In this document: positions 1-16,668 of the stretch, piece by piece | Layout of the letters: each line of letters starts with the position of its first letter | Numbering within the stretch: the stretch's first letter is position 1 | DNA from: Roseateles aquatilis | GTDB lineage: Bacteria > Pseudomonadota > Gammaproteobacteria > Burkholderiales > Burkholderiaceae_C | Direction: 5' to 3' | Length of the DNA: 43,692 nucleotides | Assembly (NCBI RefSeq): GCF_002205645.1 | Contig: NZ_NIOF01000024.1 | Span: forward strand, 1-43,692 | Notes under the pieces: model-generated | Database searches by the model: none | What the model was told of the DNA's origin: nothing | The model's input: the letters and a program-made list of their open reading frames with translations, nothing else | Translations under genes and position numbers: made by a program

Positions 1-106
1 CAACCCCAAGCGGCGCCACGGCACCGCAGGCGACACTTCGCCGGTCGAGTTCGAACGACGCCATTCCCAACGGCTCACGGGTGTCTAGGAAATCCGGGGC
101 GATTCA
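1..106 (+). mobile_element. Right end of an IS3-family insertion sequence (IS-A)
   Basis: The window opens inside an insertion sequence. It contains the last codons of an OrfB transposase, then a terminal inverted repeat ending at 106. Read inward from 106 on the minus strand, the end begins TGAATCGCCCCGG and carries TAGACACC about 20 bases in. The same layout, with TGAATCGACCCGG and TAGACACC at the same distance, appears at 43588, so these are probably the right and left ends of one IS type. The element has inserted just after codon 23 of a chemoreceptor-like gene. Only its edge is visible, so the name and length are unknown. Confidence 0.8.
2..88 (+). CDS. IS3-family transposase OrfB, C-terminal end (partial)
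   Basis: Reading frame 2 gives 28 residues that start NPKRRHGTAGD, continue through SPVEFERR, and stop at TAG 86-88. This matches the usual C-terminus of IS3-family OrfB integrases (N-P-x-R-R-H-G ... S-P-x-E-F-E). The catalytic DDE residues would lie upstream, outside the window. It belongs to IS-A and stops 18 bases before the terminal repeat ends. The identification rests on a short but characteristic tail. Confidence 0.75.
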   Translation, partial: NPKRRHGTAGDTSPVEFERRHSQRLTGV

Positions 107-175: not shown

Positions 176-265
176 AGATTGCTCCGGTTCAGGGTCTGAT
201 GGATCCGTCCGAGATTCAGGGCAGTATGAATCGCCCCGGGTTCTGCGGAGGCCAGTTGGTTTAAG

Positions 266-1207
266 TCAGACGGTCGCGGCCTGACCAGCGCGTTGACGAT
301 GGTAATTGGCTTCGAACTCCGCAGGCGGGACGTGCCCCAGCGGCCCCATCAGCCGGTGATGGTTGAACCAGGCGACCCCTCCAGCGTTGCCAGTTCCACC
401 GCCTGCTTGGTCTTCCACGGCCCGCGCCGGTGAATGACCTCGGCCTTGTACAGCCCGTTGATGGTCTCGGCCAGGGCGTTGTCGTAGCTGTCGCCCTTCG
501 AGCCCACTGAGGGCTCGATGCCGGCCTCGGCCAGCCGCTCGCTGTAGCGAATCGACAGGTATTGCGAGCCGCGGTCTGAGTGATGCACCAGCCCATCGTC
601 TTCGCTCGGCTTGCGGTCGTAGAGCGCCTGCTCCAGCGCGTCGAGCACGAACTCGGTGTGCATCGAGCTGCTCTGGCGCCAGCCCACGATGCGCCGGCTG
701 AACACGTCGATGACGAACGCCACATAGACCCAGCCTTGCCAGGTCGAAACATAGGTGAAATCCGAGACCCAGAGCTGGTTCGGCCGCTCGGCACGGAACT
801 GCCGATTGACGCGGTCCAGCGGGCATGGCGCCTTGGGATCGGGAATGGTGGTCCGCACAGCCTTGCCGCGTCGCACGCCCTGCAGCCCGAGTTGACGCAT
901 CAGACGCTCGACGGTGCAGCGCGCAACGGCCACGCCTTCGCGGTTGAGCTGGCGCCAGACCTTCTCGGCGCCATAGACCTGGTGGTTGGCCTGCCAGACG
1001 CGATGCACCTGCGGCAGCAACTGCGCATCGCGCTGAGCCCGCAAAGAGCGTAAGACAGGGCTGCGCTGACACGCGGCGTGGCGCCAGTACGCCGATGGGG
1101 CAATCTGCAAGACGCGGCAGATCGACTCGACCCCAAGCTGCTGGCGGTGCTGGTCGATGAACGCCTTCAGGACTTGATGCGGCGGTCGAGCTCCGCCTGG
1201 GCGAAAA
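266..1207 (-). pseudogene. IS3-family transposase OrfB (DDE integrase), frameshifted near its C-terminus
   Basis: This is the catalytic half of the transposase and should be translated by a -1 frameshift from orfA at the TTTTTC run (1208-1203). An IS3 helix-turn-helix-like region is followed by the rve integrase core: D in WVSDFTYV, D in HHSDRGSQY and E in YDNALAETING, so the DDE triad is present. A base appears to be missing at about 378/379. The sequence reads CTGGAG-GGGTCG where CTGGAG-TGG-GTC is expected (L-E-W-V). This moves the frame to a stop at 351-349. The normal ending, WFNHHRLMG through VPPAEFEANYH, continues in another frame to 266. The copy is probably inactive unless a full-length transposase acts in trans or the gap is a sequencing error. 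Confidence 0.8.
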
Positions 1208-1490
1208 ACGCGCTGGCCAGCTTCAGAATCTCGTTGGCCTTGCGCAGCTCGCGCACCTCTCGCTCCAGTTCCTTGACGCGCTGAGCCTCCACAGTCGAGA
1301 CGCCGTCTCGCTGGCCGGAATCGACCTCGTGCTGCTTGACCCAGGTGTGCAAGGTCTGCGGCACGCAGCCGATCTTGTCGGCGATGGATTCGATGGCCGC
1401 CCACTGCGACGGATGCTCTGCCCGGTGCTCCAGCACCATGCGCACGGCACGCTCACGCACCTCAGGCGAAAACTTCGGGGACTTCTTCAT
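1167..1490 (-). CDS. IS3-family transposase OrfA
   Basis: The 107-residue protein opens [19 protein letters not shown], a typical helix-turn-helix OrfA that binds the terminal repeats. A C-terminal leucine-zipper-like stretch ([19 protein letters not shown]) matches the OrfA dimerisation region. The tail [12 protein letters not shown] is the usual end in this IS group, and its TTTTTC codons form the slippery site for fusion with OrfB. The start lies 48 bases inside the right inverted repeat end. The gene itself looks intact. Confidence 0.9.
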
Positions 1491-1538
1491 GGCTCCATTC
1501 TCCAGAGTTGGAGCCTCCTCGAAACCCGGGGCGATTCA

Positions 1539-1945
1539 GCCCTGTCCGTGCGTTCAAGCTTCAGGTCAGACAGGAACTCTCGCAGATGGTGGTCTGGGAT
1601 CGTCTCTGCGAAGATGACGTGTGCATTGAGGCGCTTGGTCGTCGGGGCGGAGAGTCGCAGCTCGATACCCGGAAATACGATCTTCTTCAGCGCGGGTGCG
1701 CCAGGTTCAGCCAGTCGGCGCTTGAGCGCGAACCATCCGTCAAACGTCCAGTAGTCCATGATCGCGAAGACGGCCGGCTCAGCGGCATTCATCGCTTCGA
1801 TCATTTCGTCGATCAGCGTGCGGTTCTCAGGAGAGGATATGTCTCCGTCGAACTTCTTGCCTGTCCAGTGGAAGGACGCCGGTGTGTGCACGTGCAGATC
1901 CCACTGGCGCCAGACTGAACCTCTGGCGATCTCCCTTTTTGACAT
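1539..1945 (-). pseudogene. PHP-domain protein, TrlF-like (PHP-ATPase), truncated by IS-B
   Basis: The start ATG at 1945-1943 overlaps the TAA of the helicase gene (TAATG), so translation is coupled. The N-terminus includes GSVWRQWDLHVHTPASF. The H-x-H metal-binding motif is characteristic of PHP phosphoesterase domains, and the surrounding sequence resembles the N-terminus of TrlF-type proteins, where a PHP domain precedes a long ABC/SMC-like ATPase. About 135 genuine codons remain before the IS-B end; the frame then runs into the IS and stops at 1487, giving a 152-residue hybrid. The large ATPase part is missing and is not found on the other side of the IS. PHP-ATPases have been reported as antiphage proteins (the Ppl type), so this may be the remnant of a defence gene. 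Confidence 0.7.
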
Positions 1946-4812
1946 TAGATTAGCTCCCATTGAATGCAGAAAAGGGGCTGCTCTTTGACTTGTTGTTTGA
2001 GCTGGCCTTCTAACTGACTGATGATGTCGTTGCGCTGGGCCTCGATTTCATCTTGTTTGTTGAAGAGTTCGCGACGCAGCTTCGTGCGCGTACTCTCAAG
2101 CTCACGTTGTTTCTTTTGCCACGACAACTTCTCGTCCAGCGTCGGCGCACTGGCTGCCGTACGCCGGACTTCTTTGATCTGCCGGTCGATCTCCTTGATC
2201 TCTTGCTCGATGCCCAGCTTGAGGTCGTCGGCCCAGTCGTCCAACTTTTGGACCTCTTGCTCGAAGTAGCCCAGATTGCGCTGGTTGATCTCACGCAGGA
2301 TGTCCATCCTGCGGCCCAAACTGTCCTCGGCTAGTTCGGACACCGGCTCATTGCCATCGCACGGCCCTTCCAGCTTCACGGGTAGGCGCAGGAGTTTCGA
2401 CGGGTCGTCTTCGGCCAGCGGTGACCCGTCAACGGTGACGGCGGCCACGACAAGCCGCTCTTCCAAGTTGCCCAGCGCTTCCACGGCGACCAGGCTCACG
2501 GACAGCCAACCAGACTTGCCGCGATAGTTCTTCAAAGTGCTGATCTGCGTGCCGTAGGCGCCGTAGTCAAACAGCAGTTTGGCCATCGGCAGCTTTCGGG
2601 ACTTCGCCTGGGCTGTTACCCACTCGGCGAGTGGATGCCCGATCCGATACAGATGCGATTCGCCTGATCGCCGGGGCAATTCGTACCGCCCCAGCTCGAC
2701 GCCAGCAAGTGCGGAGCTTGGGAGTCGCTGTAGGACGAATCCTTCTTCATCGAATGTTGCGTGCCCCGCGAGCTCTGCTCGCGTCAAGTCCAGCAGCATG
2801 CGCTCGTACTTGCTTCGTGCGGCGCTACTGGCCTCAGCTCGTACACGCAGCTTGTCCTGAACCTCTTCATCGAAGTTCTCAAGCAGGATCTGCCGCGTTT
2901 TCACCATGGCTTCGTTGATCTCGCCGGACAGGTCGCGCTGCAATTGCTCGAAGCTAGCCTTGATGGCATCTGGGTCACGGCAGTTCTGATAGATGTCCGC
3001 GATACGCCGCTCGAAGTCCACGCCGGAGCCGATGGCGCCCAGTACCTCGTCGCTGGCACCAAACACGCCTTCGAAGAGTTGGAATTTTTGGTCCAGCAAC
3101 TCGTAGACGCGGGCGTCGGCTTCGTTGCTGCGGTCAACGAAGTTCACCACCACAACGTCAAACTTCTGTCCGTAACGATGGCAGCGACCGATGCGCTGCT
3201 CGATCCGTTGCGGGTTCCATGGCAGGTCAAAGTTGATCACCAGCGAGCAGAACTGGAGGTTGATGCCTTCAGCGCCTGCCTCGGTGGCAATCATCACGGT
3301 GCCGCGCTCTTTGAAGTGCTCCACCAGGGCCGCGCGCGTGTCTGCCGTGCGCGAGCCGGTGATCTTGTCGGTGCCCTGGTGGCGCTTGATCCAGTCCGCG
3401 TAGACAGCTTGGGCGCGGGCGTCGCTGTTCGTGCCGTTGAATAGCACGATGCCTTCACCGTACGGTGTCTTCTCTAGCAGCGAGAGCAGGTACTCCTGAG
3501 TGCGCTTGGACTCTGTGAAGATGATGGCCTTCTTGGCGGCTCCCAGCCGCTCAAGCTCGGCGAATGCCTTGTCTAGGGCGGTCAGCAGCGCGGTGCCTTT
3601 GGCGTTCTCGCGGATGTTGGTTGCCAGGGTCTTGAAGTGCCGCAGCTCGGCAATCTCCTGTGCAACAGCGTCGCGCTGGGCCGCTGGCGATGCGTCTGTG
3701 GTCTCAGCGCTGCCATCCCACTCGTCTGCGGTTTCGTCGAGTGACTCGTAGTCGTCGTCGAGTACCTCCGCCAGATCAGGGACATCTGGGGATGCTTCGA
3801 GTTCGCCTTCGAGGCGCTTGGCCATTGTCTCCAGCGCGCCTGCGATAGCGTGCGTGGACGAGGCCAGCAGTTTCCACAGCACGAGTGAGATCAGCTGCCT
3901 CTGGCCCTCGGGCAGGGCTTTGAGGTTTGGGCGGCGAAGGTAGTCGGCCACCAAGTTTGAGAGTTCGCGCTCTTCGGTCGAGGGGGTGAACTCCTCCACC
4001 ATGGCACGCCGTGCCGTGTATGGCACGTACTGCTGGACTTGCCTGCGTAGCGTTCGCTTGCACACGGTCGCAAGCCTGGAGCGCAGCGCTGCAAAAGCCT
4101 GCTCACGGGGCTGCGCGGTGAACTGCGTGCGGAAGCTGTCGATGTCACCGAACACGCGGTCGTCGATCATGCTGACAAGGCCGTACAGCTCCAGCAGCGA
4201 GTTCTGCAGCGGCGTAGCTGTAAGCAGCACCTTCGAGTGGACATGCGCCAGTGCCTCTTTCAGCGTCTTGGCGATGACGTTGCTGGCCTTGTAGACATTG
4301 CGCAGGCGGTGGGCTTCGTCCAGAACCACCAGATCCCATTCGACAGCCTTGATGTCACCGGCCTTGGCCTTGGCGAACTGGTACGAGCAGATGACGGGGC
4401 CTGTTGCGCCTTGGAAGGGATTGCGGCGGTCTTGCTTGCGAAGGGTGTTGTAGCTCTTGGCTTCCAGCAGAACACTCTGCAGGTTGAACTTGTCTTGCAA
4501 TTCCTGGTGCCATTGCTTGCGCAGGTTGGCGGGCACGATGATCAGGATGCGACGGCGGCGCTCAGCCCAGCGCTGGGAGATCACCAGCCCCGCCTCGATG
4601 GTTTTGCCGAGCCCTACTTCGTCGGCCAGGATGACGCCGCGCGATAGTGGATTCGCACAGGCGAACAGGGCTGCCTCGACTTGATGGGGGTTGAGGTCAA
4701 CTTGCGAGTCCACCAAGGTGGAGGCGAGCGACTCAACAGAGTCGCCCGCCGCGCGTCGGGTCAACAGCCAGGCGTAGTACAGGCTTTGATATGGCGTCAG
4801 CGTCTGTTGCAT
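1945..4812 (-). CDS. SNF2/RapA-like DEAH helicase
   Basis: This 955-residue superfamily 2 ATPase should translocate on double-stranded nucleic acid. Walker A is DEVGLGKT at about residues 64-71, motif II is DEAH at 164-167, and motif III is LLTATPLQN. The C-terminal RecA-like lobe has TEAGAEGINLQ and the arginine-finger motif QRIGRCHRYGQ. A charged coiled-coil-like region fills the last 100 residues (many E/K/R/Q). The start at 4812 was chosen because the ATG overlaps the Fic stop (TGATG); a longer frame from 4845 would overlap Fic further. It is the middle gene of a coupled Fic-helicase-PHP operon. Related SNF2 proteins occur in DISARM and other defence loci, so a nucleic-acid sensing role is plausible, but the substrate is unknown. 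Confidence 0.88.
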   Translation of the reverse strand: MQQTLTPYQSLYYAWLLTRRAAGDSVESLASTLVDSQVDLNPHQVEAALFACANPLSRGVILADEVGLGKTIEAGLVISQRWAERRRRILIIVPANLRKQWHQELQDKFNLQSVLLEAKSYNTLRKQDRRNPFQGATGPVICSYQFAKAKAGDIKAVEWDLVVLDEAHRLRNVYKASNVIAKTLKEALAHVHSKVLLTATPLQNSLLELYGLVSMIDDRVFGDIDSFRTQFTAQPREQAFAALRSRLATVCKRTLRRQVQQYVPYTARRAMVEEFTPSTEERELSNLVADYLRRPNLKALPEGQRQLISLVLWKLLASSTHAIAGALETMAKRLEGELEASPDVPDLAEVLDDDYESLDETADEWDGSAETTDASPAAQRDAVAQEIAELRHFKTLATNIRENAKGTALLTALDKAFAELERLGAAKKAIIFTESKRTQEYLLSLLEKTPYGEGIVLFNGTNSDARAQAVYADWIKRHQGTDKITGSRTADTRAALVEHFKERGTVMIATEAGAEGINLQFCSLVINFDLPWNPQRIEQRIGRCHRYGQKFDVVVVNFVDRSNEADARVYELLDQKFQLFEGVFGASDEVLGAIGSGVDFERRIADIYQNCRDPDAIKASFEQLQRDLSGEINEAMVKTRQILLENFDEEVQDKLRVRAEASSAARSKYERMLLDLTRAELAGHATFDEEGFVLQRLPSSALAGVELGRYELPRRSGESHLYRIGHPLAEWVTAQAKSRKLPMAKLLFDYGAYGTQISTLKNYRGKSGWLSVSLVAVEALGNLEERLVVAAVTVDGSPLAEDDPSKLLRLPVKLEGPCDGNEPVSELAEDSLGRRMDILREINQRNLGYFEQEVQKLDDWADDLKLGIEQEIKEIDRQIKEVRRTAASAPTLDEKLSWQKKQRELESTRTKLRRELFNKQDEIEAQRNDIISQLEGQLKQQVKEQPLFCIQWELI

Positions 4813-5873
4813 CAGACTTTCCCCTCCGCCTTGACTTGCGACCATTTCGCGCCGCGTCCCTTTCCTGTTGGGGCAATCACCCCCTCGGCCTTCATAGCGC
4901 GCAGGATCACGCGCACCATGTCGCGGCTGATGCCGGGGCAGGCCTCTTCGATCTCCGAGATGGAGAAGGGCAGTTGGCGTTTGAGAATTTCAGAGCGAAC
5001 GCGGTCGCCCTTAGCGCCACGGCCTCGCTCGATGGTGCCCACGCGCTCTTCAAATTCCTTGTAGGCCCGCAGCAGGGCGCCCCAGAAGTAATCGAGCCAC
5101 GGGGCGATGTCGTGTGCGGCCTCGTGCCAGCCCTGGGAGCTGGCCTCCAGCGTTTCGTAGTAGCTCTCCTTCGACTCTTCGAAGATGCGCTCCAGGCTGA
5201 TGAAGCGGCCCACCGCATAGTCGAAGTGATAGAGCAGCTGCAGGGTGAGCAGACGTGCCATGCGGCCGTTGCCATCCGGGAACGGGTGGATGCACAGGAA
5301 GTCGAGGATGGCCAGCGGCACCAGAACCAGGGGGTCTGCCAAGTGCTGATCCAAGGCCAAGCGGTAGCGCGCGATCAGGTCCGCCATCGCGATGGGTGTG
5401 AGGTGCGCGGCAACCGGACGAAAGCGGATGCGTGAGCTGCCATCGGGGTGGCGCTCGACGATGTCGTTGTTGGTGGCCTTCCATTGCCCGCCTGGTTGGG
5501 GCATGTAGCGGTACAGCATGCCGTGCAGCTGCAGGACCGTGCCTTCGGAAAACGGCATCTGCTCACCGCTCTCATGGATCAGACCGAGGGCATCGCGGTA
5601 GCCTGCCACCTCTTGCTCGGAACGGCTTTGCGGCGTGGCATTCTTGAGCACCAGGGACTTCAGCCGGTGCGCGGCGACGACCACGCCTTCCAGGCGGTTC
5701 GACGACTCGGTGGACTCGACCACTGCCACTTGCCGCAGATCGCTCAAGACCTCCGGCGACTGCGCCACGAAGAGCTGCTGCTTGCCCCTGTACTCACCCA
5801 GGGCGCGCAACGTCGCCAGCTGCTGCGCGTCGAAGCGCAGCTTGGCGAGGTAGTCTTGCGAGAGTGATTGCAT
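4812..5873 (-). CDS. Fic-domain protein with C-terminal winged helix (putative AMP/UMP transferase)
   Basis: The protein has 353 residues. The Fic core motif HPFPDGNGR is complete at about residues 196-204, with the catalytic histidine, so nucleotidyl transfer (usually AMP from ATP to a hydroxyl side chain) is expected. An S-x-x-x-E-G motif at residues 58-63 matches the inhibitory alpha-helix of class II Fic proteins, which holds the enzyme off in cis. Residues from about 290 to the end form a winged-helix-like DNA-binding domain (SISEIEEACPGISRDMVR). It heads the operon with the SNF2 helicase (1-base overlap) and the truncated PHP gene. Four TTGGGGTA-like boxes lie upstream and may be its own operator. 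The target protein is unknown. Confidence 0.87.
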   Translation of the reverse strand: MQSLSQDYLAKLRFDAQQLATLRALGEYRGKQQLFVAQSPEVLSDLRQVAVVESTESSNRLEGVVVAAHRLKSLVLKNATPQSRSEQEVAGYRDALGLIHESGEQMPFSEGTVLQLHGMLYRYMPQPGGQWKATNNDIVERHPDGSSRIRFRPVAAHLTPIAMADLIARYRLALDQHLADPLVLVPLAILDFLCIHPFPDGNGRMARLLTLQLLYHFDYAVGRFISLERIFEESKESYYETLEASSQGWHEAAHDIAPWLDYFWGALLRAYKEFEERVGTIERGRGAKGDRVRSEILKRQLPFSISEIEEACPGISRDMVRVILRAMKAEGVIAPTGKGRGAKWSQVKAEGKV

Positions 5874-5896
5874 GCGGCAGCATCCGGACGAGAAAG

Positions 5897-5970
5897 AATG
5901 GGGTAATACTACTGCAAATTGGGGTATGTTTGATCTTCATTGCCCCAATAACTCGTTGTTTACCCCAATT
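5897..5970. promoter_or_regulatory. Operator-like array of four TTGGGGTA boxes upstream of fic
   Basis: Between the integrase stop (5983) and the Fic start (5873) there are four copies of a TTGGGGTA-like box. Two are on the plus strand (G runs at 5900-5903 and 5921-5924) and two on the minus strand (C runs at 5943-5946 and 5963-5966). The spacings are 21, 22 and 20 bases, about two helical turns each. The inner plus box and outer minus box form a perfect 10-base inverted pair (AATTGGGGTA / TACCCCAATT). No clear -10/-35 pair is evident. The arrangement suggests a cooperatively bound regulator, possibly the Fic winged helix itself. Confidence 0.55.
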
Positions 5971-5982
5971 GGCCCTGTCGGA

Positions 5983-7038
5983 TCAGCTAGCGGACTCCGG
6001 TTCGTCGGGATCGGTAGGCGCCACTTCAGGCGCCGTGCCCTTGACCGGCCTCTCTGCTTCGATACGCAGTGGCTTCAGACGATGTGCCGGTTTGCCTTGT
6101 GATGCGGTGCCGTAGACCCTCTGAGTCTTTCGGGATAGGTGGCCCAGCCCCCGGCTGACCGCGTCTGCGTCGCCGTTCCGCTTGGCATCTGCCCCCCATT
6201 GGTGCCTTAGGCAATACGCCGTCACGGTGTGCGGGTGCGAAGGCCACAAGCAGCCAGCTAAGCGCTGTACCTCTGCAGAGAAGTTCATGGCGCTCGCGAC
6301 CTGAACGACGACTGGGGTCTCGGCCGTGCCGGGCAACAGCGCCTTGATCATCGACAACAACGGATGCGTGTCTCCCGCCGCGTACGTCAGGCGGCGATGC
6401 GGCTGCCCTTGTTCCCGTTTGACCTTCGCACCAGCGACCTCAAAGTGGATCTCGATCTCCTGCGTCGCTGCATCCTGCGTTTGCCAAACCTTGATGCCTC
6501 TCTCCAGTTCGCTGGGGCGGCATCCCGTCAGCGCTGCGACCAGCAAGGCAGCACCGTACCGTCCCGCACGGCCGCGATTGCAGAGTTGGACGCGCCAGTC
6601 AGGGGGAAGCCCACTGAGGGCTCGCCGTTTGCTGTTGCGTAGGGCTCGCAGACCGCCCAGGCCTCTTCGCCGAAGTTCGAGCAGGGCCTGCACGCGCGCG
6701 ATTTGTTCGTCGAACGCAGCGATGTGTCTTTGTGCCTGCTCATCCGAAACGGGTTCGATGATGCTGCCCAGCAATTCCAACTGCCTTTGCTGCAGGGTGA
6801 ACCGCAGGGCGGACATGCGCTTCTGGAACGTGGAGGGGCGTAGGGTGTCAGACACCACGCCGATCAAGCCGTCCTGCGCCACCTTGGCTCGTCTGAGCAA
6901 CGATTGCCCGAGTCGCAGGTAGTCGTGCTCCGTGTCGGGCGAGCGACCGGCATTGCGCGAGCGGTCGGACGCAAGCTGCTGTAGAAGCTTGGTGCTTTGA
7001 AGCATCTTGGCTTTTAGACTTTGTATGAGCTTGCTCAT
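5983..7038 (-). CDS. Tyrosine recombinase / phage-integrase-like protein
   Basis: The start at 7038 was chosen because its ATG overlaps the RepA stop (ATGA) and a GGAG lies upstream. The 351-residue protein has an N-terminal helical part and a C-terminal catalytic region. The box I arginine is in TGCRPSEL, the box II motif is YCLRH (Y in place of the first H of HxLRH), and LGHLSRKTQRVYG carries the last His and the putative Tyr nucleophile. It is the third gene of an AlpA-like/RepA/integrase operon. It probably moves or resolves the island by tRNA, but it lies about 2 kb from tRNA-Pro, so its att site is unproven. Confidence 0.75.
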   Translation of the reverse strand: MSKLIQSLKAKMLQSTKLLQQLASDRSRNAGRSPDTEHDYLRLGQSLLRRAKVAQDGLIGVVSDTLRPSTFQKRMSALRFTLQQRQLELLGSIIEPVSDEQAQRHIAAFDEQIARVQALLELRRRGLGGLRALRNSKRRALSGLPPDWRVQLCNRGRAGRYGAALLVAALTGCRPSELERGIKVWQTQDAATQEIEIHFEVAGAKVKREQGQPHRRLTYAAGDTHPLLSMIKALLPGTAETPVVVQVASAMNFSAEVQRLAGCLWPSHPHTVTAYCLRHQWGADAKRNGDADAVSRGLGHLSRKTQRVYGTASQGKPAHRLKPLRIEAERPVKGTAPEVAPTDPDEPESAS

Positions 7039-8147
7039 GCACCGCTCCTCTCGCATCGCGGACGGCGGGGCGGACTCACCGCAAAGACTCGTGGTTGCAC
7101 GGGCGGAGGCGAGGCGTGCAGCTCCAGCCCGCCTGGGTATCGGGTGACTTTCGCTTGCGGGTATTCCGCCAGCACTTTGGGTAGGGCAAGCAAGAAGCTC
7201 GTGCGGAAATCGTCCTCGGCACGAACGCCACAGTACTCTTGCCCGAATTGCAGGCGCAGCGCCGCCCACGGGACGGTCACGGGTGGCCCCTTGATGAGGT
7301 GAAGCCGGTAGGCCAGCCATGTGTAGATGTCGATGCACAGGGCGGACCCGGTCAAAGCGTGAAGCGCACGACGATCCAGTGGAACGCCGTGTGCGCGCAA
7401 CTCTTTGTAGAAGTCGTCGGTGAGAACAAGAACATTGGGCCACTTGTTGAGTTCACCGGCAGAACGCGGCAGCCAAGCTTCGTACTGCTTCACGGCCATG
7501 CTGTTGAAGGTATGGTCGGCGAAGCCCATCTGAAGCCGACAGGCAGCCATGGCGTTGAGCTGGCAGCGCAGAGTCTTGTAGCGACCCCCTTGCGTGTCAG
7601 CGAGGCCAATCAAGCGCATGAAGTCAGCGGGCGTGCGACCAATTTCGATGGCCGGCGAACTGCTTCGCAGGGCCAACGTGGCGATACATGCCAAAGCAAG
7701 GCGCGGGGTAGCGCCGTACGGGATGGGCTGAGGAACCGGCACGCCGGCAATGCTGAGGATGCCTGCCTGCACGTGCAGCCATGCCGAACCGACACGACGC
7801 TGGAACTCCCGCTCCTTCACTTTCCGACGCGGCAGGCCGGTCTGACAAAGGATGGAGTGATGGAAGATCAACTCATTCCAATCTGGTGGGTCTTGCGCGA
7901 TGGCGACCCCTGCTTCAAGCAGCTTGGCGTCACGAGCGCTGAGCGCCTTTGGCTGAGCGTCAGGTAGCGGAAGGGCGTCTGCTCGCAGCGAGGGCTTTGC
8001 CGCCTGGGTCGTGCGCGGCAAGTACTGCGTTCTCGCTGCAAGTGCATGGGCATCTTCTCCGGAAATGCCTCGTGCGATCAACGCGGCGGCATACTCGGCG
8101 CGGAGGGCTGCGTCGCCGTCGATGGGGAAGTCGTCAAGGGATCTCAT
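7035..8147 (-). CDS. RepA-family plasmid replication initiator
   Basis: The 370-residue protein matches the plasmid-encoded RepA family. The conserved block around VPQPIPYGATPR is followed by IEIGRTPADFMRLIGL, a G-G-R-Y-K segment, then FYKELRAHGVPLDRRAL, DIYTWLAYRLH and an L-x-x-QFG motif. Such proteins bind iterons and start plasmid replication, so this gene marks the island as plasmid- or ICE-derived. Start and stop overlap its neighbours by ATGA at both ends, so all three genes are translated together. No iterons could be recognised in the window. Confidence 0.75.
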   Translation of the reverse strand: MRSLDDFPIDGDAALRAEYAAALIARGISGEDAHALAARTQYLPRTTQAAKPSLRADALPLPDAQPKALSARDAKLLEAGVAIAQDPPDWNELIFHHSILCQTGLPRRKVKEREFQRRVGSAWLHVQAGILSIAGVPVPQPIPYGATPRLALACIATLALRSSSPAIEIGRTPADFMRLIGLADTQGGRYKTLRCQLNAMAACRLQMGFADHTFNSMAVKQYEAWLPRSAGELNKWPNVLVLTDDFYKELRAHGVPLDRRALHALTGSALCIDIYTWLAYRLHLIKGPPVTVPWAALRLQFGQEYCGVRAEDDFRTSFLLALPKVLAEYPQAKVTRYPGGLELHASPPPVQPRVFAVSPPRRPRCERSGA

Positions 8148-8602
8148 TGCTCACCTCCCTTGGCCGACGCTTGTGCTGCGGTGTTTTGAGCCCATCGAGC
8201 CCGCGACAGCTGCTCGGCTTTCGTTGGGCGGCCACGGGGGCGGCGCGGCGGTGGTGGCTCGGCGGGGCGGGTGGACTCGATCCACTGAAGGACATCGCAC
8301 TCGTACCAGCAAAGACGGCGGCTGTGCGGGAGCTTGAAGGGCCGAGGGATCAGGTGCGCATACTTGGTGTTGGTCGCGCACGTTCTGATCGTTGTTTCGG
8401 TCTTGCCAATGAGCTGGGCAAGTTGTTCGATGAACAGAATCCGAGGCAGATCGGCAGGCGGGGCCACAGGTGGCAACGTAGGAGCGAGGCAGACGGGGAC
8501 GAAGCCCTCTGCCACAGCTTGCGCAACCGGCTTGGGTGCGCTTTTTGACCGTGCGGGGCGTGATGAGTCGCCAGTACGGGCGACCGGAGATGATCTCGGC
8601 AT
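8144..8602 (-). CDS. AlpA/excisionase-like helix-turn-helix protein with AT-hook
   Basis: The protein has 152 residues. A central helix-turn-helix (LFIEQLAQLIGKTETTIR, then RPFKLPHSRRLCWYECDV) resembles AlpA/MerR-type excisionases that recognise att or promoter DNA. A Pro/Arg-rich stretch ending RRPRGRPTK looks like an AT-hook. Its stop overlaps the RepA start (ATGA), making it the first gene of the AlpA-RepA-integrase operon. It may regulate that operon or direct excision. The start at 8602 has only a weak ribosome binding site, so a shorter protein is possible. Confidence 0.65.
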   Translation of the reverse strand: MPRSSPVARTGDSSRPARSKSAPKPVAQAVAEGFVPVCLAPTLPPVAPPADLPRILFIEQLAQLIGKTETTIRTCATNTKYAHLIPRPFKLPHSRRLCWYECDVLQWIESTRPAEPPPPRRPRGRPTKAEQLSRARWAQNTAAQASAKGGEQ

Positions 8603-9081
8603 AGGAGTCTCACAAGCAAACGCGCTTGCGAGAGCCGATGCTGTTGGTTGCGGCGGGCAGAGCTACCGGTGGTCGAAGCTCGTGCGCTGGTCACCGCACC
8701 TCACGGTGCCGTAGTCACTTGGGGTTACGAAAGGACCGCGTGCGCTTACGGCCCAGACTGCGCCCCTGGCTGCTCAAAGCAGCCGAGCGTTGCGTGCTCT
8801 ATTGATCAAGCTATCTCTCATTTCACTTGATCTCACCTGCCACTTGCGCCTTGGGCTACACAGCGTTCTTGTAGGGCGCTAGGCAGGAGCGCTGTTACGT
8901 CCACCCATGCATGACAGTATGGGGAAATTCACAGCACCGTCAAGCCGTAAGCCTGGTCTGTGCCGACCTAGGGCATGTGCCCTACGCCCCCCGAGTCAAA
9001 ACCACATCGACTTGCTGGGCCATTCTTGGGCCATCGAGGGCCGAGATTTACTCCGAATCGTCATTCATGGCGATCAAAAGC
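8603..9081. other. Gene-free stretch between the island operon and tRNA-Pro
   Basis: No convincing gene was found in these 479 bases. The stretch should hold the promoter of the AlpA-RepA-integrase operon and possibly the island border. An inverted repeat GATCAAG (8804-8810) / CTTGATC (8826-8832) with 15 bases between is the only clear symmetry seen and could be an operator. No tandem iterons of the kind expected next to a repA gene are visible. Confidence 0.5.
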
Positions 9082-9117
9082 AAAAAAGCCCAAGTGCTTG
9101 ATTCACTTGGGCTTTTT
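9082..9117 (-). terminator. Intrinsic terminator of tRNA-Pro
   Basis: A 9-base-pair stem, GCCCAAGTG / CACTTGGGC (9088-9096 / 9104-9112), has a 7-base loop. It is flanked by a run of A on the left, which reads as T on the minus strand. It sits 13 bases past the tRNA 3' end in the correct orientation. Confidence 0.85.
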
Positions 9118-9129
9118 GGTCTTTTTGTC

Positions 9130-9206
9130 TGGTCGGGGTGAGAGGATTCGAACCTCCGGCCTCTACGTCCCGAACGTAGCGCTCTACCAGGCTAAGCTAC
9201 ACCCCG
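9130..9206 (-). tRNA. tRNA-Pro (anticodon CGG)
   Basis: The minus strand folds as a full cloverleaf. The acceptor stem pairs CGGGGTG with CACCCCG, the D-arm has AGCCTGGTAGAGC, and the anticodon stem is CTACG/CGTAG around TTCGGGA (anticodon CGG). The T-arm is GGAGG-TTCGAAT-CCTCT. The discriminator is A and CCA is encoded (9132-9130). The C1-G72 pair fits a bacterial tRNA-Pro. The accessory island lies immediately beyond its 3' end, the classic integration side. Confidence 0.95.
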
Positions 9207-9232
9207 TTTTGGTGTTCATTCGATCGAGAGTT

Positions 9233-10219
9233 TCAAGAACTTCTCTCCACCGACTGAGCCGCAAATTCTAGCAGACTTTCTTTCCACTTGGAAAGGGGCA
9301 GCTCGGACAGATATTGGTGGGCCTGTGCGACCTCCGCGCGCGCGGCTTCGCGCGTCGCCTCCAGGGCGCCGGTGCGCTGGACGATGGTGACGATGTCCTT
9401 CAGGCGCTCGACCTCGCCATGCTCGATCGCATGACGGATCAGCGCCCGTTCATCGTCGGTGCCGCGCTCCATCGCGATCAGCAGCGGCAGCGTGGGCTTG
9501 CCTTCGCGCAGGTCGTCGCCGACGTTCTTGCCGAGCGACTCGCTGGTGCCTTCGTAGTCGAGCGCGTCGTCGATCAACTGGAAGGCCGTGCCCAGCGCGC
9601 GACCGTAGCCGGCGCAGGCGTCTTCCAGTGCCGGCGGCGCGTCGGCCAGCACGGCGCCCAGGCGCGCGCTGGCTTCGAACAGCTTGGCGGTCTTGTAGCG
9701 GATGACGCGCAGGTAGCTGTCCACCGCGACATCGGGGTCGTGCATGTTCATCAACTGCAGGACCTCGCCCTCGGCGATGACATTGGTGGCGTCGGCCAGC
9801 ACTTCCAGGACGCGCATCCGGTCCACCGAGACCATCATCTGGAAAGCGCGCGAATAGAGGAAGTCACCGACCAGCACGCTCGCGGCGTTGCCGAACAGCG
9901 CGTTGGCGGTCTGCTTGCCGCGGCGCAGCGCGGACTCGTCGACGACGTCGTCATGCAGCAGCGTGGCGGTGTGGATGAACTCGACCACCGCCGCGAGCTC
10001 GCGACTGGCGGGGGAGTCGGCACCCAGCGCATTCGCGAACATCAACACCAGCTTGGGACGCATCCGCTTGCCGCCAGCGTGAATGATGTACGCGGAGATC
10101 TGATTGATCAGGGCCACGTCGGAACGAAGGCGTTGCGCGATGACGGCATCGACTTCATCCATCTGCGCATTCAGCGCCGCGAGGACCTCGGCAACTTGGG
10201 TAGAGGCAATAGGCTGCAC
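9233..10219 (-). CDS. ispB: Octaprenyl diphosphate synthase
   Basis: This trans-polyprenyl diphosphate synthase elongates farnesyl diphosphate with isopentenyl units to make the ubiquinone side chain. The two aspartate-rich Mg-binding motifs are DDVVD at about 90-94 and DDALD at 217-221, and GGKRMRP lies near residue 50. A GTG start at 10219 gives 328 residues, close to the usual 320-325. Longer frames run through a TATAAT at 10253-10248, which places transcription start near 10241 and rules them out. The gene is divergent from rplU, the normal order in Proteobacteria. The shine-dalgarno signal is weak. Confidence 0.95.
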   Translation of the reverse strand: MQPIASTQVAEVLAALNAQMDEVDAVIAQRLRSDVALINQISAYIIHAGGKRMRPKLVLMFANALGADSPASRELAAVVEFIHTATLLHDDVVDESALRRGKQTANALFGNAASVLVGDFLYSRAFQMMVSVDRMRVLEVLADATNVIAEGEVLQLMNMHDPDVAVDSYLRVIRYKTAKLFEASARLGAVLADAPPALEDACAGYGRALGTAFQLIDDALDYEGTSESLGKNVGDDLREGKPTLPLLIAMERGTDDERALIRHAIEHGEVERLKDIVTIVQRTGALEATREAARAEVAQAHQYLSELPLSKWKESLLEFAAQSVERSS

Positions 10220-10539
10220 TCTCGACTCACAGTGAGGGGAAGCGCGGATTATAGGAAGGCCCGCGCGCATGCCGACCCGCGTCGGCCGCGGTCTCGCACA
10301 ACGCCATGTCGAAGGGGTTCCGGCGATGCGTCCGCGAGCCGCTCCGAAGGAGGGGCGTCCCTGCGCCGGTGACCCGCGAGGCCGATGACCACGGGTCCTG
10401 AGAGGACTGGCCGTTTGCATCAGGGTTAGCACCTGTGCTACATTCGCGGGCTCCGCATCTTTGTGCGGTGTTTTTTCTTGGGCGGTCGAACCTGCTGATT
10501 CCCGGCTTGGGGCGGCTGTCCGTATGTGAAAGGGCTGAT
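10220..10539. promoter_or_regulatory. Divergent ispB / rplU promoter region
   Basis: This stretch has no gene. On the minus strand TATAAT (10253-10248) is a good -10 for ispB, with no clear -35. On the plus strand TTGCAT (10415-10420), 17 bases, then CTACAT (10438-10443) is a plausible promoter for rplU-rpmA. A rplU leader of roughly 90 bases follows, containing a small hairpin and a run of six T. Confidence 0.5.
10453..10476 (+). terminator. Hairpin plus T-tract in the rplU leader (possible attenuator)
   Basis: CCGCA (10453-10457) pairs with TGCGG (10464-10468) and is followed by TGTTTTTT. It resembles a weak intrinsic terminator placed in the 5' leader about 65 bases before the rplU start. 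Ribosomal protein operons are often controlled in their leaders, but the 5-base-pair stem is short and attenuation is only a suggestion. Confidence 0.3.
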
Positions 10540-10851
10540 ATGTACGCGGTCATAAAAACCGGTGGCAAGCAATACAAGGTTGCTGCTGGCGAAAAGATCA
10601 AGGTAGAACAGATTGCTGCGGAAGTTGGCCAAGAGATCGTGATCGACCAGGTTCTGGCAGTCGGAGACGGCGCTGAACTGAAGGTTGGCACTCCCTTGGT
10701 TGCTGGCGCCAGCGTCAAGGCCACTGTCGTGGCCCATGGCAAGCACGACAAGGTGCGCATCTTCAAGCTGCGCCGTCGCAAGCACTACAAGAAGAGCCAA
10801 GGCCATCGCCAGACCTTCACCGAGCTGGAAATCAGCGCGGTGAACGGCTGA
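10540..10851 (+). CDS. rplU: 50S ribosomal protein L21
   Basis: The 103-residue protein opens [14 protein letters not shown], the L21 signature, and ends with the basic [14 protein letters not shown] region that contacts 23S rRNA. The length equals the family norm. The start at 10540 was chosen over an in-frame ATG at 10435 because only the former gives the conserved N-terminus. Codons here are less GC-biased than in neighbours, as expected for a highly expressed gene. rpmA follows after 42 bases, forming the usual operon. Confidence 0.98.
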
Positions 10852-10893
10852 GCAATCGGTCCACTCTTTAGCAATCTGATCAAGGAGTAATCC

Positions 10894-11151
10894 ATGGCAC
10901 AGAAAAAAGGCGGCGGCTCGACACGAAACGGCCGCGACTCCAAGCCCAAGATGCTGGGCGTGAAGGTGTATGGCGGCCAGACCATCTCGGCGGGCTCCAT
11001 CATCGTGCGTCAGCGTGGCACCAAGTTCCACGCCGGTACCAACGTGGGCATGGGCAAGGACCACACGCTGTTCGCATTGGTCGACGGCACGGTGTCCTTC
11101 ACCGTCAAGGGCGAAAACAGCCGCTCCACCGTCGTCGTCACGGCGGTTTGA
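10894..11151 (+). CDS. rpmA: 50S ribosomal protein L27
   Basis: The 85-residue protein begins [16 protein letters not shown], the L27 N-terminal arm that reaches the peptidyl-transferase centre. [18 protein letters not shown] and a C-terminal VVVTAV complete the family pattern. A strong AAGGAGT ribosome binding site lies 8 bases before the ATG. There is no N-terminal extension that would need cleavage, unlike Firmicutes L27. A terminator follows at 11209. Confidence 0.98.
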
Positions 11152-11208
11152 GTCTGTTGATGTCCTGAAGCGCCGTGCCGGGCTCGTCCCGGCGCGGCGC
11201 GGACCCCC

Positions 11209-11240
11209 AAGCCCCGGCTTCGTCCGGGGCTTTGTTCTTT
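11209..11240 (+). terminator. Intrinsic terminator after rpmA
   Basis: GCCCCGG (11211-11217) pairs with CCGGGGC (11224-11230) around a short loop and is followed by TTTGTTCTTT. It separates rplU-rpmA from obgE, so obgE probably has its own promoter or depends on read-through. Confidence 0.8.
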
Positions 11241-11358
11241 CAGGCCCTGAAGTCGCGCGGGCCTCCGTGTTTCGCGAGTCCCGACTCGCATCGATCCAAA
11301 GCATGACCCGGCGCGGGAGCGCGGGGCGTGAATTACGATAGCCCCGCTCCGGGACTGA

Positions 11359-12696
<1,338 letters not shown>

Positions 12697-12728
12697 GTTT
12701 TCGATCGTCTCGCTGACGCACCCCGACC

Positions 12729-13862
12729 ATGAGCAACGATGAATTGAAGAGTGTCCTGAAGGATGCGCGACGCATCGTCGTCAAGGTCGGCTCCAGTCTG
12801 GTGACGAACGAGGGCCGCGGCGTCGATGCCGAGGCCATCGGCAACTGGTGCCGTCAGCTCGCCGAGCTGGCGCGCGAGGGCCGCGAGCTGGTGATGGTCT
12901 CCAGCGGCGCGATCGCCGAAGGCATGAAGCGCCTGGGCTGGGTCAGCCGGCCGAAGGAGCTGCACGAGCTGCAGGCCGCCGCGGCCGTCGGCCAGATGGG
13001 GCTGGCGCAGATGTACGAGACCAAGCTGCGCGAGCAGGGCCTCACCAGCGCGCAGGTGCTGCTGACCCACGCGGACCTGGCCGATCGCGAGCGCTACCTC
13101 AACGCGCGCTCGACGCTGCTGGCGTTGCTGCAGCATCGCGTGCTGCCGGTCATCAACGAGAACGACACCGTCGTCAACGACGAGATCAAGTTCGGCGACA
13201 ACGACACGCTCGGCGCGCTCGTCGCCAATCTGGTCGAGGCCGACGCGCTGGTGATCCTCACCGATCAGAAGGGCTTGTACTCGGCCGATCCGCGCAGGGA
13301 CCCGACCGCGCGCTTCATCGACGAGGCCGTCGCCGGCCGGCCGGAGCTCGAGGAGATGGCGGGCGGCGCCGGCTCCAGCATCGGCCGCGGCGGCATGATC
13401 ACCAAGATCCTGGCGGCCAAGCGCGCGGCGAGCAGTGGCGCCAACACCGTCATCGCCTGGGGACGCGAGCCCGATGTGCTGCTGCGCCTGGCGAGCGGCG
13501 AACGCATCGGCACCGCGCTGCTGGCGTCGACCGCGAAGCTCGCGGCGCGCAAGCAGTGGATGGTGGACCATCTGCAGCTGCGCGGATCGGTGCGCGTCGA
13601 CGCGGGCGCGGCGATCAAGCTACGGGAAGAGGGCAAGAGCCTGCTGCCCATCGGCGTGCAGGACGTGACCGGTGAATTCCATCGCGGCGACGTGATCGCC
13701 ATCCTCGACCTGGCCGGCAAGGAGCTGGCGCGGGGGCTGACCAACTACGGCAGCGCCGAAGCGCGACTGATCGCGCGCAAGCCGTCGTTCGACATCGAGC
13801 GGGTGCTGGGCTACTCGGCGGAGCCGGAACTCATACATCGCGACAACCTCGTGATGCGCTGA
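12729..13862 (+). CDS. proB: Glutamate 5-kinase
   Basis: The enzyme phosphorylates glutamate to gamma-glutamyl phosphate, the first step of proline synthesis, and is feedback-inhibited by proline. The amino-acid kinase domain has [11 protein letters not shown] at the N-terminus, SSGAIAEG for substrate binding, NENDTV and FGDND, and GRGGMITK for ATP. A PUA domain follows from about residue 280 ([18 protein letters not shown]). At 377 residues it matches the long PUA-containing form. It lies 32 bases after obgE and is probably cotranscribed. Confidence 0.97.
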
Positions 13863-13937
13863 GCCGGCGCGGCGCCGAGTCGCGTCACTCAACGCATGAC
13901 CCAGCGCGCCACGTAGCGCGCAGCGGAGCGCGAGAAA

Positions 13938-13972
13938 GAAAAAGGCGCTGGTGAAGACCAGCGCCTTTGTCG
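13938..13972. terminator. Bidirectional terminator between proB and rppH
   Basis: An 11-base-pair stem, AAGGCGCTGGT / ACCAGCGCCTT (13942-13952 / 13957-13967), has a GAAG loop. On the minus strand it is followed by TTTTTCTTTC, a strong T-tract for rppH. On the plus strand a weaker TTTGTCGTT serves proB. The convergent genes share it. Confidence 0.85.
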
Positions 13973-13986
13973 TTGCGCGGCGGGGG

Positions 13987-14703
13987 TCAGTCCTTCGACG
14001 GCTCCGTCGGCCCGCCGTGTCCGCCGCCTTGCGGCGCGGCGTCGTGCGGCGCATGCGCATCGTGCGTCGCCGTCGTGGCGGTCACTTCGTGCGCCTCATG
14101 GCCGTGTTCATGCGGGTGATCGTCGTGGTCGTGGCGATGATGGTCGCCGTCCCCATGGCCATGGCCGCCGTGGCGGTCGCCGCGAGGTGGCGGACGCATG
14201 CCGGCGCGCAGATAGCGGTTGTGGTGATTCAGGCGGGGCAGGAAGCGCGCAAGCTCCGTCAGCGCCATCTGGTAGACGCCGCGCTTGAACTCGATGACCG
14301 CCTCGAGCGGGACCCAGTACTCGTTCCAGCGCCAGGCGTCGAACTCGGGATGGTCGGTGGCGCGCAGGTTCATGTCGCTGTCGCGACCGGTCATCTGCAG
14401 CAGGAACCAGATCTGTTTCTGGCCGCGGTAGTGGCCGCGGGCATCGCGCCGGATGAAGTGATCCGGAACCTCGTAGCGGAGCCAATCGCGCGTGCGCGCG
14501 ATGATGCGCACGTGGTCTGCAGTGAGGCCCACTTCCTCATGCAGCTCTCTGAACATCGCCTGCTCGGGCGTTTCGCCATGCTTGATGCCCCCTTGGGGGA
14601 ACTGCCAAGAATGCGTGCGTATGCGCTTGCCCCAGAACACCTCGTTCTTGTGGTTGAGCAGGATGATGCCGACGTTGGGCCGGAAGCCTTCACGGTCGAG
14701 CAT
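13987..14703 (-). CDS. rppH: RNA pyrophosphohydrolase with His-rich C-terminal tail
   Basis: The Nudix hydrolase removes pyrophosphate from 5' mRNA ends and triggers decay by RNase E. The Nudix box [20 protein letters not shown] lies at about 38-57. WQFPQGGI and the [12 protein letters not shown] start are typical of RppH. ATG at 14703 has GAGGTTG upstream; the much longer open frame beyond it is only a shadow of proS. After about residue 170 the protein adds a His/Asp/Gly-rich tail ([18 protein letters not shown] and more), making 238 residues against about 160-176 in E. coli. The tail may bind metal. The gene is divergent from proS. Confidence 0.95.
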
Positions 14704-14883
14704 AATCAACCTCGAATCATTCGTTGGATCGATTATTGCACCCGGCTCACGGCCCGGAGCGATCATCGCTAACCCTCGGTAGCAATCGGCGATCCGGGCC
14801 CGTGGCGGGCCCTGGCGATGCCTCCCGGGCAGGCGCGCCGAAGGCGGGTCCCACGATGATGCCGGCCCGGATCCACGCACGTG

Positions 14884-14921
14884 CCGCGGCAGCTTCGCTG
14901 GCCGCGGACTTTTATTTTTGC
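14884..14921 (+). promoter_or_regulatory. Hairpin and T-rich tract directly before proS
   Basis: CCGCGGC-AGC (14884-14893) pairs with GCT-GG-CCGCGG (14897-14907) around a three-base loop, with one bulge. It is followed by ACTTTTATTTTTG, and the proS ATG comes at 14926. It looks like an intrinsic terminator or attenuator, yet lies only about 18 bases before the start codon. No purine-rich ribosome binding site is visible. Alternatively the T-rich tract acts as a -10 or an S1-binding enhancer. Confidence 0.45.
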
Positions 14922-14925
14922 GCCC

Positions 14926-16668
14926 ATGAAAGCCTCCCAGTTCTTCATCTCCACGCTCAAGGAAGCCCCCGCCGATGCGGAGATCGTCAGCCACAAGTTG
15001 ATGATGCGGGCAGGCATGATCAAGCGCCTGGGCGCCGGCATCTACAACTACATGCCGATGGGGCTGCGCGTGATCCGCAAGGTCGAGCACATCATCCGCA
15101 GCGAGATGAACCGCGCCGGCGCGGTCGAGCTGCTGATGCCGGTCGTGCAACCGGCCGAGCTGTGGCAGGAAACCGGCCGCTTCGACAAGATGGGCCCCGA
15201 ACTGCTGCGGGTGAAGGATCGCCATGGCCGCGACTTCATCATCCAGCCGACGTCGGAAGAGGTCATCACCGACATCGCCCGCCAGGAGCTGCGCAGCTAC
15301 AAGCAGCTGCCGAAAAATTTCTATCACATCCAGACCAAGTTCCGCGACGAGCGTCGTCCCCGCTTCGGCGTGATGCGTGGTCGCGAGTTCACGATGAAGG
15401 ACGCCTACTCGTTCGACCGTGACGTCGCGAGCGCCGGCCGCAGCTACGAGAACATGTACTCGGCCTACTGCAAGGTGTTCCATCGACTGGGCCTGCAGTA
15501 CCGCGCCGTGGCGGCCGACACCGGCGCGATCGGCGGCGACCGCTCGCACGAGTTCCAGGTCATCGCCGAGACCGGCGAGGACGCGATCGTCTATTGCCCC
15601 ACCAGCGACTACGCCGCCAACATCGAGCTGGCCGAGGCGCTGGCCCTGCTGCCCGCGCGCGGCGCGGCGACGCAGGCGCTGACGAAGACCGCCACGCCGT
15701 CGAAGTCGACCTGCGCGGACGTCGCCGAACTGCTGAAGCTACCGCTGGCGCAGACCGTCAAGTCGCTGGTGCTGGCCACCGACGAGTTGAACGAGCAGGG
15801 CGAGGTCGCCAAGTCGCAGGTCTGGCTGCTGCTGGTGCGCGGCGACCACGACCTGAACGAAGTCAAGGCCGGCAAGATCGAGGGTCTGAAGGGCGGCTTC
15901 CGCTTCGCCACCGTCGGCGAGATCGAAACGCACTTCGGTTGCAAGCCTGGTTACCTCGGCCCCATCGGCCTGAAGCTGCCGGTGAAGATCGTCGCCGACC
16001 GCACGGTGGCCCACATGGCCGACTTCGTCTGCGGCGCCAACGAGGCGGACTTCCACTTCACCGGCGCCAACTGGGGCCGCGACCTGCCCGAGCCCGACCT
16101 GGTGGCCGACATCCGCAACGTCGTCGAAGGCGATCCATCGCCCGACGGCAAGGGCGTGCTGGCGATTCAGCGCGGCATCGAGGTCGGCCATGTGTTCTAC
16201 CTCGGGACCAAGTACTCGGCCGCGATGAACGCGACCTACCTGGACGAGACCGGCAAGCCGCAACTGATGGAGATGGGCTGCTACGGCATCGGCGTGACGC
16301 GCATCCTGGGCGCGGCGATCGAGCAGAACCATGACGAACGCGGCATTGTCTGGCCCGACGCGATCGCGCCATTCACCGTGGTGGTCTGCCCGATCGGCAT
16401 GGACCGCAGCGAGGACGTCAAGGCCGCCGCGACCCAGCTCCACCAGGACCTGCTGGACCTGGACATCGACGTGCTGCTGGACGACCGCGGCGAGCGCCCC
16501 GGCGCGATGTTCGCGGACTGGGAACTGGTCGGCGTGCCGCATCGCGTGGTGATCTCCGACCGCGGCCTGAAGGAAGGCCAGGTCGAGTACCAGGGCCGCC
16601 GCGACGCGGAAGCGACCAAGCTGGCGCTGGCCGACGTCGTCGCCCACCTGAAGCAACGCCTGGCGTGA
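14926..16668 (+). CDS. proS: Prolyl-tRNA synthetase
   Basis: This class II aminoacyl-tRNA synthetase attaches proline to tRNA-Pro. The 580-residue protein starts [15 protein letters not shown], the standard bacterial ProS N-terminus. Motif 2 has [18 protein letters not shown] YbaK-like editing insertion, which clears Ala-tRNA-Pro, lies between motifs 2 and 3 (around residues 225-405). Motif 3 is in [17 protein letters not shown], and an anticodon-binding domain ends the protein. The start was set at 14926 from the family alignment; a longer in-frame ATG at 14881 lies inside the upstream hairpin. A membrane protein gene overlaps its stop. Confidence 0.97.

Follow-up and report, generated by a model that had tools for sequence, protein, structure and literature searches.

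A truncated Fic, SNF2 helicase and TrlF gene trio in Roseateles aquatilis as the probable remnant of a modular type III restriction–modification operon

The truncated locus and its intact relatives

The genes under study lie in a 43,692-nucleotide stretch of the Roseateles aquatilis genome (assembly GCF_002205645.1, contig NZ_NIOF01000024.1), hereafter the window, and encode a Fic-type AMPylase, a DrmD-like SNF2 helicase and the beginning of a TrlF-family PHP protein (Table 1). All three are co-directional on the minus strand and joined by TGATG and TAATG junctions, each a stop/start overlap of one base. A sequence-only reading of this DNA had described these overlaps, had placed the genes on a plasmid-like island beside a tRNA, which agrees with the RepA_C and tRNA-Pro genes found there, and had proposed the trio as a candidate defence system. 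We consider it probable, at roughly two chances in three, that the trio is instead what remains of the 5' end of a modular type III restriction–modification (R-M) operon, that its Fic protein would serve as an autorepressor and a latent AMPylase, and that the copy in the window is a recent relic.

Table 1. Coordinates of the features of the locus within the window
Feature	Position	Strand	Remarks
Fic AMPylase, class II type	4812..5873	-	353 aa (amino acids); inhibitory SNRLEG before the Fic core; predicted C-terminal winged helix
SNF2 helicase, DrmD-like	1945..4812	-	955 aa from the coupled ATG; longest open reading frame (ORF) begins at 4845, 966 aa
TrlF-family PHP-SMC ATPase gene, 5' fragment	1539..1945	-	about 135 native codons, PHP-domain HxH motif; 1032 aa in the Giesbergeria relative (L005)
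Operator-like array upstream of Fic	5899..5969	plus-strand reading	TGGGGTA at 5899 and 5920; TGCCCCA at 5941; TACCCCA at 5961; spacing 20–21 bp
IS3-family insertion sequence (IS)	227..1538	-	two-frame transposase; ALIL pseudoknot at 1096–1212; terminates the TrlF gene
ORF with tyrosine-recombinase-like C-terminal motif	5983..7443	-	recognized by eye, without a Pfam match; lies between the RepA and Fic genes
Plasmid replication protein (RepA_C)	7035..8147	-	part of the carrier island
tRNA-Pro(CGG) at the island boundary	9130..9206	-	same tRNA at the homologous place in Parachitinimonas caeni (L060)

The third gene had been taken for a PHP phosphoesterase gene, which is true of its start only, since native sequence ends at position 1539. 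The fragment matches positions 1–121 of the 944 in the TrlF model, scoring 114 bits where 350 are required, and the part of its 157-residue ORF past 1539 is read from the IS3-family element. The pseudoknot in that element (Rfam RF01497, minus strand, 109 bits) is the known frameshift signal of IS3-family transposases. As the trinucleotides flanking the element, compared by eye, are unequal (GTA and GCC), a rearrangement is likelier than a simple insertion. Contigs C5, C42 and C46 carry copies of window positions 1–106 at their ends, and so the contig evidently stops at a repeat. The approximately 120 bp left between two IS ends (positions 107–226) encode, as judged by eye, the first part of a chemotaxis protein of Aer/MCP type and look like a scrap of rearrangement.

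The operon is intact in two close relatives. In P. caeni (L060), one alignment extends from the end of the tRNA-Pro gene (9206) to 1539, at 94.3% DNA identity over 7673 columns with 31 gap positions, and includes, at the place matching the window ORF 5983..7443, an ORF of the same length (486 aa). In a Giesbergeria metagenome-assembled genome (L005), the DNA aligned to window positions 5877 to 1539 is 94.8% identical, and identity to both relatives ends exactly at 1539, where the IS3-family element starts. Both continue to seven genes in the order Fic, helicase, TrlF, AIPR, GHKL-like ATPase, type III methylase and type III nuclease, with products downstream of the helicase of 1032 aa (TrlF), 593 aa (AIPR), 665 aa (the GHKL-like protein) and 590 aa (the methylase, Mod), followed by the nuclease, Res. 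The TrlF gene of L005 encodes the full-length combination of PHP domain and SMC-type ATPase (680.8 bits against the cut-off of 350), and its AIPR protein scores 142 bits with the Pfam AIPR model. In the 665-aa protein, GHKL-type motifs (EAISNAVDA, DDGVGF, GGRGVGR) and a nuclease-like EPDI...VIEFK stretch can be recognized by eye, together with a weak match to Pfam HATPase_c (E = 0.0027). The L005 methylase scores 702 bits with the PADLOC model MTase_III and has DPPY preceding FAGSG; the Res protein of a further locus, L011, scores 707 bits with REase_III and has the motifs DESH and PD..ETK, of SF2 helicase and PD-ExK-like type, respectively, and the full Res proteins of L005 and L060 are 84% and 83% identical to it. 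Thus, Mod and Res with their catalytic motifs accompany these genes in intact relatives (Mod in L005, Res in L011 and L133, with both genes present also in L060).

No such genes were recovered from the genome to which the window belongs. A search of that genome for Mod gave no match (the search had no built-in positive control; the search of the same genome for Res did match), and a DNA search with the downstream part of the L005 operon, also lacking a built-in positive control, gave nothing. The sole Res match is a fragment within a second, chimeric remnant on contig C34 (G000; L132:8312-10282), where a 656-aa open frame joins the helicase, up to residue 449 or so, in frame to Res from about residue 750. 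This fragment was ruled out as the lost tail of the window operon, being part of the helicase–Res fusion of the second copy. The C34 copy is preceded by a small helix-turn-helix (HTH) sequence, recognized by eye, and followed by an AAA_13-type ATPase gene; at L132:10648-10743 (minus strand), a tRNA-Ser predicted by ARAGORN overlaps the 875-aa AAA_13 ORF on the opposite strand, so that one of the two is probably wrong, unless the tRNA is an insertion scar. Given that the genome search yielded neither a methylase nor an intact nuclease, the window copy is probably a recent relic, and restriction is most likely dead in the window because only Fic and the helicase are intact there. Synonymous differences exceed nonsynonymous ones by 132 to 17 in the helicase (against L060), by 28 to 4 in Fic and by 10 to 1 in the TrlF fragment, with a ratio of nonsynonymous to synonymous rates (dN/dS) of approximately 0.04–0.05 for Fic and the helicase and 0.03 for the fragment. 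Since even the dead TrlF fragment appears constrained, the cut looks recent and these ratios are uninformative on present function.

The helicase, methylase and nuclease unit and its exchangeable cargo

The description of the second gene as a RapA/SNF2-like translocase proved accurate: motifs I, Ia, II, III, V and VI are all found, and GLGKT, DEAH, TATP, GINLQ and QRIGRCHR are present. The closest model is DrmD_b, at 669 bits, and the weaker matches to the DrmA, DpdE and BrxH models reflect common helicase domains. This likeness to DrmD of class 1 DISARM falls short of membership, with a score under the curated cut-off of 950, and the remaining genes lend it no support: neither drmA, drmB, drmC nor drmMI is among the PADLOC matches listed for TrlF, AIPR, the 665-aa gene and Mod (best 25 of 58) of L005, or for Res of L011.

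To place the helicase in its genomic contexts, we used the best 80 of 218 confirmed relatives (68–98% identical, a sample biased to close relatives), taking a greedy longest-ORF set as the genes of each locus and labelling gene clusters from hidden Markov model (HMM) scans of a few members. The 16 loci with less than 9 kb downstream of the helicase were excluded from the counts of Mod and Res. In the other 64, which have at least 9 kb, a methylase is present in 62, Res in 61 and both in 61, all in the direction of the helicase; the exceptions are L052 (no Res), L064 (helicase truncated) and L083. Over all 80 loci, the accompanying genes are AIPR (33), TrlF (15), RhuM (15), the 665-aa gene (10), IetA (7), IetS (6), a Ppl-like TrlF (4) and Fic (5), and some loci hold further cargo outside these labels. 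Exchangeable genes are placed between helicase and methylase, RhuM often between Mod and Res. Mapped on a quick helicase tree with 81 members, the numbers of changes required, as raw minima, are 6 for TrlF, 4 for the Ppl-like genes, 16 for AIPR, 3 for IetS, 12 for RhuM and 8 for the 665-aa gene (64 loci), and 4 for Fic (81 rows). The same order, SNF2, cargo, annotated methyltransferase and annotated DEAD/DEAH helicase, is seen on Deinococcus and Salmonella plasmids, with helicases 54% and 48% identical and a cargo that includes AIPR and VapC or Abi (2 of the 45 plasmid records with a helicase match were inspected). Within the same class, the helicase occurs in 22 of 369 genomes at E-values up to 1e-150, the window's own included.

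The three-gene combination expected to recur across genomes hardly does so. Fic and TrlF share a locus in 2 of 80 helicase loci, each of the two near-identical to the window, TrlF is without Fic in 13 of its 15 loci, and Fic is paired with other cargo in L011 and L014. A self-contained trio system is rejected on these numbers. As judged from gene content, the recurrent unit consists of helicase, methylase and nuclease with exchangeable cargo, and we file the operon as an apparent variant of type III R-M with a fixed SNF2–Mod–Res chassis, of which the window would hold a damaged copy. In common with EcoP15I-like type III R-M systems, the operons of the relatives close with a methylase, its DPPY preceding FxGxG, and Res; they differ in an extra conserved SNF2 helicase as the first chassis gene and, usually, in at least one cargo gene before Mod, and the window copy differs further in keeping neither Mod nor Res. 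Similarly, the L005 gene is a full-length member of the TrlF/Ppl PHP-SMC ATPases, yet one embedded in an R-M operon and reduced to its N-terminus in the window.

The Fic protein and its operator-like array

The Fic transferase was correctly read as having a complete Fic motif, HPFPDGNGRMAR starting at residue 196, and an inhibitory S-x3-E-G motif, SNRLEG at residue 58 of the window ORF translation; in addition, a winged helix is predicted at its C-terminus, at approximately residues 287–346. It is 81% identical to PDB 8uqu across 252 aligned residues, and a literature search on that entry found no paper. Among 28 aligned Fic proteins, the inhibitory S58, E62 and G63 and the catalytic H196, D200, G201, G203 and R204 are invariant, and P197 and N202 nearly so. 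The SoFic-type signature is present (HxFx[DE]GNGRxxR plus a [ST]xxxE[GN] helix ahead of the Fic core) and the class II protein scores 123 bits with the PADLOC SoFic model, but it reaches only 39.9 of the 550 bits required by the NCBIfam SoFic equivalog, in keeping with a subfamily of its own close to PDB 8uqu.

The regulatory relative to be considered is CccR, matched by the window protein through its structure, PDB 7XUX, with an E-value of 3e-8. CccR is a Fic-HTH toxin and autorepressor reported, in the available excerpts of PMC9755527, to AMPylate FtsZ and to repress itself via a palindrome, its 10-bp arms separated by 26 bp, close to the -35/-10 boxes of its gene. The two share a class II Fic core, a C-terminal HTH domain, predicted for the protein studied here, and a long-spacer palindrome at the promoter region of their own gene, which in the window is recognized by sequence. 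They differ in the geometry of the palindrome, with 7-bp cores here and a spacer of 34–36 bp at most exact-pair loci (15 bp at L118), in a structural alignment with 22% identity, and in setting, as CccR is reported to be an effector of a type VI secretion system and the gene here is coupled to an R-M operon. A scan of positions 5800–6100 for promoters and terminators found none.

The motif was first seen in the window and afterwards sought in other loci. Two to four TGGGGTA/TACCCCA repeats lie upstream of Fic in 9 of 11 Fic loci at or above 57% identity, helicase-free copies included, and the remaining two have a variant motif. At least two such repeats were found in one of 75 Fic-free helicase loci and one of 17 distant Fic genes, and none of 5000 shuffles attains the repeat count of the window. 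In its inverted-pair form the motif gives 23 strand matches in 2.01 Mb of compared DNA, all upstream of Fic, representing six Fic loci and the window. These repeats, present also before helicase-free copies, are a new observation here, and the array appears to travel with Fic and not with the helicase. A motif pair near the helicase of L035 was rejected as an operator, its members being 318 bp apart and one of them within the upstream ORF. Two look-alike palindromes, TTGGGGTA...TACCCCAA, with no Fic nearby, at G115 C3:73300-73349 and C4:66998-67047, may serve a different regulator as operators.

An HTH sequence of about 67 aa directly precedes the helicase in 22 of the 80 helicase loci and in none of the five with Fic (approximately 1.4 expected, a weak contrast), and Fic may accordingly occupy what looks like the slot of a regulator. 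The gene ahead of the helicase in L027 (around 9205–9810) encodes a different Fic/Doc-type protein of 201 aa with the motif AHPFREGNGRATR, and Fic-fold genes may therefore have entered this slot more than once. By analogy with CccR, we judge Fic to be a putative self-inhibited AMPylase that would repress its own, coupled operon.

The Fic subfamily also occurs outside the operon. In genomes of the same class, Fic is found in 36 of 369 at E-values up to 1e-20 and in seven at 44% identity or more, and of these seven the helicase adjoins Fic only in the window's genome, the contig of G213 ending about 500 bp past Fic. Neighbours were judged by eye apart from those that were HMM-scanned. At L120 (G091, 7656-15407, minus strand), a type I R-M operon that has no operator array includes a Fic of this subfamily (48%), flanked by HsdS and HsdM, and has HsdR upstream of these. 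On an Acidovorax plasmid (L121, 15001-16529; 3 of the 10 plasmid records with a Fic match were inspected), a 97% identical Fic is accompanied by the same array, and a truncated HsdR N-terminus follows 33 bp past the annotated end of Fic. No R-M neighbour was seen, by eye, in G092, G166 and G037, and a 1401-aa protein lies downstream of Fic in G065. A 42-residue ORF after Fic in L115, presumably methylase-like, matches no gene in the 80 helicase loci. The association of this Fic subfamily with R-M recurs, and it is not universal.

Competing explanations and the place of the operon

A function of the locus in defence is well supported by the type III R-M, AIPR, TrlF/Ppl-like and IetAS-like genes that form its context in relatives; to this extent the proposal of a candidate defence system holds, though not for the trio as a unit, and the copy in the window is a truncated one. 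In the full operon as we envisage it (Fic, SNF2 helicase, TrlF, AIPR, GHKL-like ATPase/nuclease, Mod, Res), Mod would mark host sites and Res, probably with the help of the DrmD-like translocase, would attack unmarked DNA, and the TrlF, AIPR, IetAS and RhuM cargo may provide further lines of defence. Bound through its C-terminal winged helix to the TGGGGTA array that covers the promoter of its own gene, Fic would repress the coupled operon, as CccR does its own gene, and upon infection this repression might be lost or the AMPylase released.

Alternatively, Fic could be mainly a toxin that AMPylates an essential host protein, with its inhibitory helix and the R-M/helicase complex both restraining it until infection releases it, comparable to PrrC guarded by R-M; DNA binding would then be secondary. 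We regard this as unlikely, but as the alternative that fares best. It would explain the invariance of the inhibitory and catalytic residues and is in line with the occurrence of the subfamily in a type I R-M operon and ahead of an HsdR N-terminus, as well as with the abortive infection reported for SoFic (excerpts of PMC12249575) and the layered defence proposed for R-M loci with Doc and RhuM toxins (excerpts of PMC3710099). However, an operator array that accompanies Fic even in helicase-free settings is needless for a pure effector, and the protein falls far under the SoFic model. A scheme in which the helicase would sense infection and Fic would kill, as the sequence-only reading had put forward, is hypothetical; the sequences speak in the first place for Fic as an autorepressor heading the operon, with toxicity as a possible second role.

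It is improbable that Fic and the helicase form a two-gene defence unit still working in this strain, independently of the lost genes. Both frames are intact with a dN/dS of about 0.04, but the TrlF fragment has an equally low ratio, the cut seeming too recent for visible decay, and L064, the only other of the five Fic loci without Mod and Res, has a truncated helicase (861-aa ORF, covering query residues 8–857). Least credible is a dedicated three-gene Fic–SNF2–PHP system, for although the three genes are coupled in the window and come first in L005 and L060, those two loci are the near-identical ones that make up the whole count, both go on with AIPR, the 665-aa gene, Mod and Res, and repeated changes of Fic and of TrlF are required on the helicase tree, the two being mostly found apart.

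Returning to the R-M operon reading, layered R-M operons that combine Doc, RhuM, AIPR and paraMORC had been put forward on the basis of gene order in 2008 and 2013, according to excerpts of PMC2292703 and PMC3710099. The MORC/paraMORC operons of the former share with those described here a GHKL-like ATPase, AIPR, SF2 helicases, type III R-M parts and mobility; in the excerpts of that paper, Fic, TrlF and IetAS are unnamed, and SNF2 and Rad25/type III helicases belong to separate operon types, whereas here both are in one operon. In the titles and abstract openings of the open-licence papers listed by our searches we recognized no description of the SNF2–cargo–Mod–Res layout, and the portions of that literature covered yielded none of an SNF2–Mod–Res chassis with a TrlF/IetAS cargo bay or of Fic as an operator-bound head gene. 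Term searches found neither Fic nor TrlF in the ARMADA preprint (PMC12458937), and nothing on the SNF2–cargo–Mod–Res architecture in PMC12255303 and PMC12839542.

We tentatively suggest, as an idea that is short of probable, that the operon represents an undescribed platform crossing phyla, in which a fixed chassis of DrmD-like SNF2 translocase, Mod and Res would carry a plug-in bay for TrlF/Ppl, IetAS, AIPR, RhuM or the GHKL-nuclease and, in some lineages, would be headed by a Fic protein that unites promoter-bound repressor and AMPylase in one molecule, coupling induction to a self-modifying stress response. The Fic operator may offer a handle on how such operons might stay off until needed, a matter on which the searched portions of the literature hold little. 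What appeared to be a three-gene curiosity would be one severed end of a modular restriction platform that is widespread, with TrlF/Ppl, IetAS and AIPR as exchangeable cargo, and defence-finding tools that list these genes singly may be splitting one system.
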